This document shows positions 36,366 to 40,503 of a stretch of 47,925 bases of DNA, in pieces. Origin of the DNA: Hyphomicrobiales bacterium. Its GTDB lineage: Bacteria; Pseudomonadota; Alphaproteobacteria; Rhizobiales; Methyloligellaceae. Every line of letters begins with the position of its first letter. The stretch's first letter is position 1. The stretch covers positions 770 through 48,694 of the forward strand of contig PLBV01000127.1 of assembly GCA_003135455.1 (NCBI GenBank), given 5' to 3'. The position numbers and the translations under genes were made by a program. The notes beneath the pieces are model-generated. The model worked only from the letters and a program-made list of their open reading frames with translations. It was not told where the DNA came from and did not search any database.

Positions 36366-37637
36366 TTATTCGTAGCGCAACGCTTCTACCGGATCGAGGC
36401 GAGAGGCCCTCCAGGAGGGATAAAGGGTGGCGAGGATCGACAAGACGAGCGCCATGACCACCACGGACACCGTCTCGCCGGTATCCATCTCCGCCGGCAT
36501 TTGCGACAGGTAATAGAGCTCGGGCGAGAACAGCTCGGTGTCGGTGAGCCAGCCGATGAACTCGCGCAAGTGCTCGATATTGAGGCAGACGAGCAGCCCG
36601 AGTCCTAACCCCGCCAGCGTCCCGACGATGCCGATCGAGGCCCCGGTGATGAAGAAGATGCGCATCACCGCGGCGCGGGTGGCGCCCATGGTGCGCAGGA
36701 TGGCGATGTCGTGGCCCTTATCCTTCACCAGCATGGTCAGGCCGGAGATGATGTTGAGGGAGGCGACGAGCACAATCAGCGCCAGGATGAGGAACATGAC
36801 GTTACGCTCGACCTGAAGCGCGGTGAAGAAGGTGGCGTTACGCTGGCGCCAGTCGCTGATGTAGATGGTGGGGCCGCCCGCCTCGATGATCTCTGGCCCG
36901 AGCTTGCCCACCTCGTCGGGAGAGTCGAGCACCACTTCCAGCACGCTGACATTGTCCTGCTGGTTGAAATAGCGCTGCGCCTCGTTGAGCGGCATGAACA
37001 GGATGCTCGAATCGTACTCCGACATGCCGATCTCGAAGATGGCGACGATGGGATAGCGCTTTACCCGGGGCGCGGTGCCGAGCGCGGTCGAGGCCCCGCG
37101 TGGGGAGAGCAGGGTCACCTGGTCGCCGAGCTTCACATTGAGCTCGTTGGCAAGCCGCGAGCCGAGCGCCACCCCCGCCTGGCTGTCGAAGCCGTCAAGG
37201 GTGCCGAAGCGGATGTTGCCGGCCACGGCCTTGAGTTGCTTCAGGTCCGCCTCGCGAAGCCCGCGCACCAGCGCTCCACTCGAGGTCGAGGGCGTGGAGA
37301 TCATCACCTGCCCCTCGATCAGCGGCAGGGCGTATTTGACGCCGGGCACGCCCCTCACCCGCGCGGCCACGTCGTCGAAGCCGGTGAAGTTGCCGTCGAT
37401 GCTGTGCACCACGACGTGGCCGTTCAGCCCCAGCATCTTGCTGAACAGCTCCTGGCGGAAGCCGTTCATCACCGCCATGACGATGATCAGCGTCGCCACG
37501 CCGAGCATGATACCGATGAAGGAGAAGCCGGCGATCACCGAGATGAAGCCCTCTTTCCGGCGGGCGCGCAGATAGCGGAGCGCCACCAGCCATTCGAAGG
37601 GCGCAAAGGCCCGCGTGCCGTCCGGGGGTCCGCTCAT
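36366..37637 (-). CDS. lolC: Lipoprotein-releasing system permease LolC/E
   Basis: The membrane partner of LolD. The 423-residue protein opens with the family signature [29 protein letters not shown], one membrane helix (about 30-60), a large periplasmic MacB-like domain (about 60-270), and a C-terminal FtsX domain with three helices ([26 protein letters not shown], then two more, ending [22 protein letters not shown]). There is one such permease gene here; alphaproteobacteria usually carry a single LolC/E-type subunit that forms a homodimer, sometimes called LolF. Its ATG overlaps the proS stop by four bases. Confidence 0.94.
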
Positions 37638-38983
37638 GCCGCTTCCCTCCTCGCTTCGCTCGCCGAGCTTATCACCCGGTTCAGCGCGGCCTCGATGGAG
37701 AGCGTGTGGCGCATCCCGGTGGCGCGCTCCTTCAGCTCGATCTCGCCCGCTTTGATGCCCTTGGGGCCCACGATGATCTGCCAGGGGAGCCCGATCAGAT
37801 CCATGGCGGTGAACTTGGCCCCTGCCCTATCGTCGCGGTCGTCATAGAGCACGCTGATACTCGCGTTTTCGAGGCGCCGGTAAAGGTCCTCGCAGGCGCG
37901 GTCGACCTCGGCCTCGCCCACCTTCAGATTGATCAGGCCGACATCGAAGGGCGCCACGGATTTCGGCCAGATGATGCCGGCTTCATCGTGGGAGGCCTCG
38001 ATAATGGCGCCCACCAGCCGCGATACCCCGATGCCGTAAGAGCCCATCTGCACCGTCACCAATCCTCCGTCGGGACCCTGGACCTTGCAGCCCATGGGCT
38101 CGGAGTACTTGGTGCCGAAGAAGAAAATATGGCCGACCTCGATGCCCCGCGCGGTCACGCGCCTGTCTTCAGGCACCTCCTCGGCAAAGCGGCCGGCGTC
38201 GTGCTTCTCGCTGGTGGCGGCGTATTTGCCAGTCCAGGTGCGGACCAGAGGCGCGAGATCGTCCTCGTAATCGAGCTCGGGTCCGGGAGGCTCCTGCTCG
38301 ACCAGATCCTTGTGGAAGTAAACCTCGCTCTCGCCAGTCTCGGTGGGGATGATGAATTCATGGCAGAGGTCGCCGCCGATAGGGCCGGACTCCGCAGCCA
38401 TGGGAATTGATTTCAGCCCCATGCGGCCGAAGGTGCGCAAATAGGCCAGGAACATCTTGTTGTAGGACCTGCGCGCATCGTCGACGGTCAGGTCGAAGGA
38501 ATAGGAGTCCTTCATCAGGAATTCGCGCCCGCGCATCACGCCGAAACGGGGCCTGATCTCGTCGCGGAACTTCCATTGGATGTGGTAGAGGATGCGCGGC
38601 AGCTCCTTGTAGGATTTCACCGCGTCGCGGAAGATCTCGGTGATCAGCTCCTCATTGGTGGGGCCGTACAGCATCTCGCGCTCATGGCGGTCGCTGATGC
38701 GGAGCATCTCCTTGCCATAGACCTCGTAGCGGCCGCTTTCGCGCCAGATCTCCGCCGGCTGGATGGTGGGCATCAGCAGCTCCAAGGCGCCGGCGCGGTC
38801 CTGCTCCTCGCGCACTATTCTCTCGATCTTGCTCAAGACCCGAAGCCCAAGCGGCAGCCAGGAATAAATGCCGGCGCTCGATTGGCGGACGAGGCCGGCG
38901 CGCAGCATCAGTCTGTGGGAGACGATCTCGGCTTCCTTCGGATCGTCGCGCAAGAGGGGCAGGAAGTAGTGGCTGAGGCGCAT
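37634..38983 (-). CDS. proS: Prolyl-tRNA synthetase, short type without editing domain
   Basis: A class II synthetase that charges tRNA-Pro. From the ATG at 38983 the product has 449 residues: N-terminal [32 protein letters not shown]-type motif [52 protein letters not shown] (motif 2 region), [50 protein letters not shown] (motif 3) and an anticodon-binding domain. The roughly 180-residue editing insert of E. coli ProRS is absent between motifs 2 and 3, as is usual in alphaproteobacteria. An ATG at 39028 would add 15 unconserved residues. A separate promoter lies about 100 bp upstream. Confidence 0.95.
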
Positions 38984-39082
38984 GGGAAGCGGTGCTGGTC
39001 TTTTAGGGCGGGCGAACGCACTGCCCACGATGAAGCCACGCCTCGGCCGGAGGCATCCGCCTCGCGGGCGGCGTGTCGCGGC

Positions 39083-39111
39083 TAATAGCTTACTTTATTG
39101 AGGGGAAGCAA
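39083..39111 (-). promoter_or_regulatory. proS-lolC-lolD promoter
   Basis: On the minus strand, -35 TTGCTT (39106-39111) and -10 CTATTA (39083-39088) are 17 bp apart. Initiation near 39076 would give a leader of about 90 nt before the proS ATG. It indicates that proS is transcribed separately from the genes to its right. Confidence 0.5.
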
Positions 39112-39196
39112 TGCTGGGGCAAAACCTCCAGCCTGCCTGGCGTCTGCCGCGCGCGCTCTTGCACGCCCTTGAATGAGCCCGGCAACCGGAAAATCC

Positions 39197-39460
39197 TCAA
39201 AGGCGCCCGCTTCCGCCTCTCGTCTGACGGCGCTCGCAAAGCGTCTGTGCCGACGCAAATGGGCGGCGCATGGGATGTGCCCCACAGAGCCGCCAGAGAG
39301 ACACCGGGAAGTAGGGGCTGGTCGTAGACGGGACTGCGGCGCCCCAGCAACCGATTCGGCTCGTGCCGCGCGTGCATTGCCTATTATAGTGGCAATAGTC
39401 AGGGTTGCACCAGAGCGCTAGACCAACCCGGCCGCGACCTTGACCATAGAGAACGCCCAC
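39197..39460 (-). CDS. Possible small cysteine-rich protein, 87 residues, unknown
   Basis: A tentative gene. The GTG at 39460 is preceded by AAGGAGGT at a 4-base spacing, the best Shine-Dalgarno in this gap. The product starts MGVLYGQGRGRVGLALW and has a cysteine cluster (CNPDYCHYNRQC, GCWG, LCGAHP, LCERRQ), six or more cysteines in 87 residues. I recognise no family and see no membrane segment or signal peptide. The same DNA is open in other frames on both strands, as GC-rich non-coding DNA often is, so this may be spurious. It is divergent from the terminator-ended plus-strand transcript at about 39555-39788, with a palindrome between. The rest of 38984-39815 shows no recognisable gene. Confidence 0.3.
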   Translation of the reverse strand: MGVLYGQGRGRVGLALWCNPDYCHYNRQCTRGTSRIGCWGAAVPSTTSPYFPVSLWRLCGAHPMRRPFASAQTLCERRQTRGGSGRL

Positions 39461-39507
39461 AAATACCTCCTTATCATGGCTCTAATCAGAAAAAGATGTC
39501 TTCGCCC

Positions 39508-39548
39508 GTCACAATGATGGTGACAATTTGGCGCGGGCTTGCTAGCGT
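39508..39548. promoter_or_regulatory. Palindrome GTCAC-N7-GTGAC overlapping a plus-strand promoter
   Basis: GTCAC (39508-39512) and GTGAC (39520-39524) form an operator-like inverted repeat, flanked by longer arms GCCCG and CGGGC. The right arm is part of a possible -35 GTGACA (39520-39525), with TAGCGT (39543-39548) 17 bp on as a weak -10 driving the plus-strand transcript that ends at 39788. It lies between that transcript and the minus-strand ORF starting at 39460. Confidence 0.4.
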
Positions 39549-39554
39549 CCCCAC

Positions 39555-39788
39555 ACAACGTGAAAGCGGTCGGGAGTGGTAATGATCTCGGAGTTGCGCG
39601 TTGAGATTGGACCAGGTCCAAGTCTTGGGAGGAAGTAGCTCCAGGCGCGCTGATAGTGCAATTGCACAAGCGCTGCCGCCCTTAGCCAGCATTCTCGACA
39701 GTCAAGAATGGCGGCGAGGTCACGCCGGCTGAGGAGCCAAGGAGTCGCGTACTATAAGAGCAAGGTCAATCCGACCTTGCTTTTTTTT
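39555..39788 (+). ncRNA. Candidate structured non-coding RNA ending in an intrinsic terminator
   Basis: About 230 nt of plus-strand sequence with no credible protein gene but a series of hairpins: TTGGACC-A-GGTCCAA (39607-39621); GGCGCGCT ... AGCGCTGCC enclosing the 12-bp palindrome GTGCAATTGCAC (39644-39677); GCC-AG-CATTCT ... AGAATG-GC-GGC (39685-39715); GGCT-GAGG-AGCC (39727-39738); and a strong terminator (39759-39788). The 5' end is inferred from a weak promoter at 39520-39548. An 18-codon ORF (39582-39638, MISELRVEIGPGPSLGRK) with GGGAG upstream lies inside and could be a leader peptide. It does not show the landmarks I know for tmRNA, RNase P RNA or SRP RNA; 6S RNA cannot be excluded by eye. 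The next coding genes downstream are on the opposite strand, so it would be a free-standing RNA. Confidence 0.45.
39759..39788 (+). terminator. Strong intrinsic terminator on the plus strand
   Basis: AGCAAGGTC-AATCC-GACCTTGCT is a perfect 9-bp stem with a 5-base loop, followed by an unbroken T-run to 39788. Read on the minus strand, the hairpin is followed by CTTATAG, which is a poor terminator, so the signal belongs to a plus-strand transcript arriving from the left. Confidence 0.85.
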
Positions 39789-39815
39789 CGCCTACTCGCC
39801 AGCCCCCTCGCCCCG

Positions 39816-40091
39816 TCAACGAATGGTGTCGTAACGCGGCAGGAACGGGATCTGATCGAGCGTGATCACGCGATGCACGATGATCGCGTAGAGGGCGGCG
39901 AAGACGATGCTCGCCACCAGTGTCGTGGCCAGCATCTTCGGCAGGAGCTTTGGCGTATGCGGGGCGCTCTCCGCCGTGCCGGGCGCCACCTCTCCCTCCT
40001 CTTCCTGAGTGCGTACGCCGATCGGCAGCATGGCGAAGAGCACGATCCACCAGATGAGGAAATAGAGGGCGATGCCAAAGGCGAGCGTCAT
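39816..40091 (-). CDS. DUF1467 family small membrane protein
   Basis: A 91-residue inner-membrane protein of a family found in alphaproteobacteria. It has two membrane helices, LAFGIALYFLIWWIVLFAML (about 3-22) and KMLATTLVASIVFAALYAIIV (about 53-73), joined by a loop with the conserved GVRTQEEEGEVAPGT, and ends LDQIPFLPRYDTIR. The ATG at 40091 lies 7 bp after the mce stop. The longer open frame from 40337 is a shadow of mce. The function is unknown to me; its constant place beside mce and proS in this order is the only clue. Confidence 0.88.
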   Translation of the reverse strand: MTLAFGIALYFLIWWIVLFAMLPIGVRTQEEEGEVAPGTAESAPHTPKLLPKMLATTLVASIVFAALYAIIVHRVITLDQIPFLPRYDTIR

Positions 40092-40098
40092 GGCTGCA

Positions 40099-40503
40099 TC
40101 ACGCTTGCTCGAGCTCGACCAGCGTGCCGCAGAAGTCCTTGGGGTGGAGAAACAGCACTGGCTTGCCATGGGCGCCGATCTTGGGCTCGCCCTTCCCCAG
40201 CACGCGGGCACCGGCGGCCACGAGCCGGTCGCGCGCTTGGCCGATGTCGGGAACCTCATAGCAGAGGTGATGGATGCCGCCAGCAGGGTTGCGCTTGAGG
40301 AAGCCTGCGATGGGAGAGTCCTCGCCAAGCACGCCAAGCAGCTCGATCTTGGTGTTGGGCAGCTCGATGAACACCGTCGTCACGCCATGCTCCGGCTGGT
40401 CGACCATGTCGGAGACCTTGGCGCCGAGCGTCTTGCGGTAGATTTCGGCCGCGGCCGCAAGATCCGGCACGACGATGGCGACATGGTTGAGGCGTCCAAT
40501 CAC
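40099..40503 (-). CDS. mce: Methylmalonyl-CoA epimerase
   Basis: The epimerase interconverts (2R)- and (2S)-methylmalonyl-CoA, linking propionyl-CoA carboxylation to the B12-dependent mutase. The 134-residue vicinal-oxygen-chelate protein has the expected metal ligands: His7 in RLNHVAIVVPDL, His79 in GGIHHLCYEVPDI and Glu130 in GTLVELEQA, together with IELLGVLGEDSPIAGFL and LFLHPKDFCG. The start is a GTG at 40503 with AGGAGA about ten bases upstream. It follows rnj by 37 bp. Its mutase partner is not in the window. Confidence 0.93.
   Translation of the reverse strand: MIGRLNHVAIVVPDLAAAAEIYRKTLGAKVSDMVDQPEHGVTTVFIELPNTKIELLGVLGEDSPIAGFLKRNPAGGIHHLCYEVPDIGQARDRLVAAGARVLGKGEPKIGAHGKPVLFLHPKDFCGTLVELEQA

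Follow-up and report, generated by a model that had tools for sequence, protein, structure and literature searches.

The window, by which we mean the whole 47,925-nt stretch of Hyphomicrobiales DNA analysed here, contains proS and a DUF1467 gene, and the gap between them ends in a Rho-independent terminator on the plus strand (Table 1). Its arms, AGCAAGGTC (39759–39767) and GACCTTGCT (39773–39781), enclose the loop AATCC and run into eight T (39781–39788). An earlier note, made from the letters alone, had seen this 9-bp stem with its T-run between two minus-strand genes, a structured stretch ahead of it and no credible protein gene, and had proposed a plus-strand small RNA of about 230 nt that it could not assign to any class. 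The terminator is present as described, Pfam confirmed both genes on the minus strand, and the structured stretch includes the palindrome GTGCAATTGCAC at 39656–39667. RNA folding of positions 39500–39790 gave −115.2 kcal/mol on the plus strand, better than shuffled sequences (z −2.67; 2 of 200 shuffles as good), and the minus strand scored likewise (z −2.95; 0 of 200). Since both strands score alike, folding energy is uninformative on strand and was dropped as strand evidence; conservation, together with the T-run and the promoter-like site, is what assigns the RNA to the plus strand. A terminator arm GCAAGG, GCAGGG or GCGAGG was found on the same strand in all 28 gaps printed for loci L001–L030 (L and G numbers are our own handles for loci and genomes). 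Scans of 38500–40500 listed no terminator and no promoter; the terminator was presumably missed because the stem had been extended into the T-run, leaving no tail. At Rfam's own cut-offs, nothing matched in the window.

Table 1. Features of the proS–DUF1467 region, in positions of the window.
Feature	Position	Strand	Basis
proS, divergent neighbour upstream	37634..38983	-	Pfam
Dyad GTCAC-N7-GTGAC over the -35, possible operator	39508..39524	.	18 aligned loci
-35-like element GGTGAC	39519..39524	+	TGACAA/TGACAT upstream of the core in relatives
-10-like element CTAGCG, 17 nt past the -35	39542..39547	+	TAG.GT kept in 18 aligned loci
Small RNA gene, probable diverged αr9 orthologue, ~231 nt	39558..39788	+	RF02343 and R1 matches; 5′ end estimated from spacing
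Hairpin GAGAUUGGAC-loop-GGUCCAAGUCUU, loop length varying by species	39603..39626	+	17 sequences
Predicted αr8 (suhB/MmgR) binding site, 20 pairs, U-U mismatch at 39626	39615..39635	+	Complementarity
Conserved core AAGUCUUGGGAGGA	39620..39633	+	Matches in relatives
Helix Pa, 5′ strand GCUCC	39638..39642	+	Covariation tests
Hairpin GGCGC...GCUGCC, variable top (here GTGCAATTGCAC)	39644..39677	+	Stem kept, loop varies
Helix Pa, 3′ strand GGAGU (alternative GGAGC, 39733–39737)	39741..39745	+	Covariation tests
Rho-independent terminator	39759..39788	+	9-bp stem and eight T
DUF1467 gene, convergent neighbour downstream	39816..40091	-	Pfam PF07330

Relationship to the αr9 RNAs

With relaxed thresholds, the Rfam model RF02343 (αr9, known as SmrC9, sra32 or SmelC289 in S. 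meliloti, C5 in A. tumefaciens and ReC25 in R. etli) matched 39561–39788 over its full length (1–149) with 31.6 bits (E 0.0033). The gathering cut-off is 45 bits, and for that reason we file the locus as a diverged αr9 orthologue and not as an Rfam member; the same place in a genome of the same genus (G003) reaches 47.1 bits. Among relatives, 24 of 61 genomes match RF02343 at E 0.1, six of them above the cut-off, one being of the same genus. Across the order, RF02343 is found at E 0.01 in 69 of 199 genomes, 31 of them scoring above the cut-off. Across the class the corresponding count is 3 of 241 (the window's own genome included), none above the cut-off; outside the order this rate is about that of chance, and αr9 was rejected there.

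The place of the gene is consistent with this assignment. In S. meliloti, SmrC9/sra32 has been detected by blotting at a site flanked by SMc01933 and proS, and its end has been mapped (PMC2245857, PMC2780559, PMC2573895); a 2011 survey counted 29 αr9 relatives in Rhizobiaceae, Brucellaceae and Phyllobacteriaceae, all but one adjoining proS (PMC3927594). The window RNA lies, likewise, divergent from proS. Among our 25 RF02343 loci (L112–L135 and L003, window included), proS is in the fetched stretch of 23, always on the opposite strand, and 20 of the 25 also have DUF1467. The stretches fetched around the matches L131 (G056) and L135 (G041) contain no proS, and G041 carries its weaker match besides a copy at proS. 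The far neighbour differs: SMc01933 is on the strand of the RNA in S. meliloti, whereas DUF1467 is on the opposite one in the window. The identity of proS to that of the window is 77–82% in Methyloceanibacter and 74% in Methyloligella, the closest being that of L032 (86%).

A covariance model, R1, was built from 28 loci outside the window's family, 22 found by RF02343 and six chosen among proS loci for carrying the core, the outside-family status of these six resting on record names and proS identity. R1 matched the window at 39612–39786 with 53.3 bits (E 2.2e-13), which at E 0.01 was the sole match in the genome. The next match within the window (18.8 bits, E 0.00073) falls on the minus strand of the terminator palindrome, as in several relatives. 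R1 recovered 29 of the 30 genomes of the window's family (the missing one, G008, is 80% complete), 20 of 31 other genomes and every locus from L001 to L030 with the exception of L028, where proS is lacking; none of seven control loci taken from the same genome as the window was matched.

Since the full-length RF02343 match, the R1 match, the place, the promoter spacing, the 14-nt core and the terminator all agree, we assign the locus to αr9 and hold it, on sequence evidence, to be almost certainly a real RNA and a diverged αr9 orthologue. On sequence evidence, the structure, the terminator and the length (about 230 nt) proposed in the earlier note stood, and the RNA does match a class. The check for 6S RNA (RF00013) suggested there gave no match at the locus, and the 6S of this genome is on another contig (59.9 bits, above cut-off). 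Promoter form and spacing, the core, the GGCGC/GCNGCC hairpin, helix Pa and a GCAAGG-type terminator are common to αr9 and the window. The differences, apart from the score under the Rfam cut-off, are in length (SmrC9 has 149 nt) and in the 5′ part, where no counterpart of the rhizobial hairpin with its AU-rich loop is evident in the window; that hairpin has been described as a variable stem (PMC3927594).

Core, helices and promoter region

The GAGAUUGGAC...GGUCCAAGUCUU hairpin, the core and the terminator are nearly invariant in 17 sequences from the genus and its sister genus, with varying loop lengths. Nine of the ten pairs of the hairpin are identical throughout and one is changed, one-sidedly, in a single sequence; being nearly invariant, the hairpin shows no covariation. 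The stretch AAGTCTTGGGAGGA is identical in the six loci that score above 120 bits with RF02343 (L112, L136–L140), and probably corresponds to the first middle hairpin of αr9, published as completely conserved and also recognizable in the window. The second middle hairpin of αr9, in which the stem is conserved and the loop is variable, is present as GGCGC...GCNGCC.

The core AAGUCUUGGGAGGA occurs exactly in 69 of 159 loci, some of which are the same place. With at most one mismatch and a terminator following, the 12-mer AGTCTTGGGAGG was found in 72 distinct loci across the order, with about 3.6 one-mismatch matches expected by chance among the loci; candidates having the motif only, such as L055, were excluded from the family. 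Position 39626, the mismatched base of the predicted duplex, is the only one in the 12-mer seen as all four letters (it differs in 7 of the 72 loci), and position 1 of the 12-mer differs in eight, always as T. In 60 of the 72 loci, TGACAA or TGACAT lies ahead of the core at a distance of up to 170 nt; 59 were kept, having this box 70–155 nt upstream and at least 80 nt between core and terminator, and 44 of these, hand-picked, were used in A2.

The comparison of relatives proposed in the earlier note yields one covarying helix, Pa, in which the five bases ahead of GGCGC pair with the stretch preceding the terminator. In 55 of the 59 loci (L025, L029, L130 and L155, without GGCGC, were omitted), the pairing score was 12.56 as compared with 9.23 for permuted partners (s.d. 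0.29; 0 of 10,000 permutations as good). Twenty hand-picked sequences gave 12.95 against 9.34 (s.d. 0.51; 0 of 20,000), and the reversed-string control on these 20 gave no signal (2,364 of 20,000). Because some of the 20 share a family, the test was repeated with strictly one sequence per group, groups being assigned by us (n = 12): 12.85 against 9.20, with none as good in 200 draws of 2,000 permutations each. One relative, L010, whose gap sequence is identical in L032, has lost the part from core to terminator (39 nt from core to T-run, as compared with 126–163 nt in L001–L009) and keeps the promoter block, the hairpin, the core and the terminator. This shortened form suggests that the core is the functional part.

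The promoter block is conserved in 18 aligned loci. Compared with the published sra32 promoter, gaTGAC-n17-CTA.AT (PMC2245857), the -35 of the window resembles gaTGAC and the spacing is equal, whereas the last two bases of the -10 differ. From the spacing we infer a 5′ end at about 39558, which would give the RNA its ~231 nt. Applied to the TGACAA box of L112, the same spacing gives the start AAAACAGGC, adjoining the mapped end of SmrC9/sra32 in S. meliloti, AAACAGGCAGGAA (PMC2245857). The dyad over the -35-like box looks like the operator of a regulator. Its right arm, GTGAC, is kept in 18 of 18 aligned loci and its left arm reads GTCAC in 14, GCCAC in three and GCGAC in one; the spacing is one base longer in two sister-genus loci, and the dyad was not seen by eye in more distant loci.

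Predicted pairing with αr8

The purine-rich core made us suspect a partner with a pyrimidine-rich linker. Such an RNA, distinct from αr9, is αr8 (suhB/MmgR, RF00519), found in the same genome at G000:C125:20913-20992 (69.6 bits): its linker UUUCCUCCCUAGACUUGGGCC is complementary to the core region GGUCCAAGUCUUGGGAGGAAG over 11 pairs, one U-U mismatch and 9 more pairs. At E 0.01, suhB was found in 19 of 21 genomes, the window's own included, and at E 0.001 in all 32 αr9-bearing genomes; this co-occurrence proves little, since suhB is present in most genomes examined. Up to six suhB matches occur per genome, some in tandem (e.g., G073, G127, G056).

The complementarity stands out from the surrounding DNA. 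When αr8 was paired with 23,950 segments of 28 nt, taken in steps of four bases along either strand of the 48 kb, the three strongest all lay on the core (top −39.5 kcal/mol; mean −15.6, s.d. 3.9), and only core segments reached −35 kcal/mol or lower, the next unrelated one being at −33.3. A single core shuffle among 500 paired with αr8 as well as the native sequence. In the αr9 fold, some of the core bases are engaged in pairs (mean unpaired probability 0.42). The 16S anti-Shine-Dalgarno end was rejected as a partner, giving 6 pairs at −10.2 kcal/mol. Other RNAs with an anti-Shine-Dalgarno sequence could also be bound by the GGGAGGA motif. For αr14 (RF02344) as a partner, no match was found in the genome, but the controls were likewise silent. 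A CsrA/RsmA decoy came to mind given the several GGA motifs; no CsrA gene was found at E 0.001 in this genome, which is 84% complete.

The two RNAs also appear to change together. In 40 genomes, own αr9–αr8 pairs averaged −37.73 kcal/mol and permuted ones −35.97 (s.d. 0.29; 0 of 20,000 permutations as good), using the best-scoring suhB copy per genome only. The set omits G026 and G047 (suhB not fetched), G012 (contig end), G007 (weak suhB) and further genomes for which the two loci were not both available, and the permutations reduce the effect of relatedness without removing it. Own pairs were weaker than the swapped mean in four of the 40 (G072, G108, G205 and G197). With 17 "lineages", 26 of 20,000 permutations were as good; because these split three families further, each family was represented by a single genome in a strict run (n = 13, 200 draws). 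Own pairs then averaged −38.24 against −37.00 for swapped ones, and the fraction of permutations as good had a median of 0.0015 and a maximum of 0.052, falling below 0.05 in 198 of the 200 draws. The own αr8 was bound better than those of other families in 12 of the 13, f44 showing the opposite. Fitting single exchanges are C-G to U-A in G044 and A-U to G-C in G184/G203, two-sided only with respect to the window's lineage and one-sided (G-U wobble) with respect to others.

An arrangement of this kind has been reported in Caulobacter crescentus, where CrfA sponges four αr8 RNAs (SisA–D) on Hfq via the core UUUCCUCCCU (PMC12559287). As in the window, a purine-rich site is complementary to the αr8 linker 5′-UUUCCUCCCU-3′, and an hfq gene is present in both genomes; the likeness concerns site complementarity and Hfq. 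SmrC9 binds Hfq, as seen by co-immunoprecipitation, and is a log-phase RNA (PMC2848018), whereas carbon starvation induces CrfA; MmgR depends on Hfq and occurs mainly in stationary phase (PMC7143759). In the openly licensed literature, as far as its accessible text goes (PMC7143759 and PMC8844928 included), we found no paper linking αr9 with αr8, and for αr9 no function beyond predicted mRNA targets. The terms SmrC9, ar9 and proS are absent from the accessible text of the CrfA paper (PMC12559287).

In our hypothesis, a housekeeping-type promoter would drive transcription of αr9 between about 39558 and 39788, and the RNA would be held by Hfq and paired through its core with the linker UUUCCUCCCUAGACUUG of αr8/suhB/MmgR. 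This linker carries the anti-Shine-Dalgarno motif that Caulobacter αr8 RNAs use to reach mRNAs, so that αr8, once bound, would be masked or destroyed and the mRNAs released, in the manner of CrfA. The combination of a nearly unchanging core with near-perfect αr8 complementarity suggests capture and silencing of αr8. We consider it fairly probable that the locus is a diverged αr9 orthologue whose core pairs with the αr8 linker to this effect. The sponge activity of αr9 towards αr8 is predicted from their complementarity and from their changing together, and we favor it to the same or a slightly lesser degree. A shade less assured, but still the reading we lean towards, is the wider one, in which αr9 would be an order-wide, co-evolving αr8 (suhB/MmgR) sponge in Hyphomicrobiales, the two RNAs would form a fixed antagonistic pair, and CrfA would be one case of a wider arrangement.

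Alternative readings and implications

It is possible, if unlikely, that the αr9 orthologue pairs directly with mRNAs and that the αr8 match is a by-product of its purine-rich seed. Trans-acting small RNAs usually retain their seeds, which counts in favor of this explanation. The mRNAs of fliM and smc01800 have, moreover, been predicted as sra32 targets (PMC2245857). However, the αr8 match spans 20 pairs and extends past the purine-rich part, own αr9–αr8 pairs outdo swapped ones, and YTTGGGAGGA-type sites are barely enriched in the genome (six, as compared with four for the reversed pattern). Less probable still is a real pairing with the roles reversed, αr8 being the regulator and αr9 its target, or each RNA limiting the other. 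The pairing data carry no direction and are compatible with it; on the other hand, αr8 reportedly occurs throughout the Alphaproteobacteria apart from Rickettsiales and is the sponged partner in Caulobacter (PMC12559287), and αr9 has no conserved reading frame to silence.

Two further explanations are very improbable. If there were no separate RNA, the hairpin would terminate a convergent DUF1467 transcript and the remainder would be chance structure, as the 27 nt between T-run end and DUF1467 stop codon and the equally good folding of the minus strand might suggest; yet the T-run of the window is on the plus strand only, though a few relatives (L014, L018, L051 and others) have one on both sides, and relatives retain the promoter-like site, the core and helix Pa. 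A small protein gene using GGGAGGA as its ribosome binding site, given the resemblance to a Shine-Dalgarno sequence, was rejected because only 6 of 59 relatives have a start codon 2–12 nt past the core and the peptides are dissimilar, in agreement with the absence of a credible protein gene claimed earlier.

The RNA itself is a relative of the known rhizobial αr9, and the new part is a lead on its function. αr9 has been known since 2007, and the sponge role, if true, gives it one. If the core is indeed an αr8 trap, Hyphomicrobiales possess a dedicated antagonist of the control that αr8/MmgR exerts on carbon storage and transporters. S. meliloti, with both RNAs described and with MmgR variants already constructed, would allow a test of this idea. 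Our mapping also extends αr9-like RNAs beyond the three families of the survey (PMC3927594), reaching, among others, Methyloceanibacter, Prosthecomicrobium, Kaistia and Roseibium. In four loci of one family (L117, L145, L146 and L149), the variable hairpin carries a second GGGAGG, possibly a second trap site.
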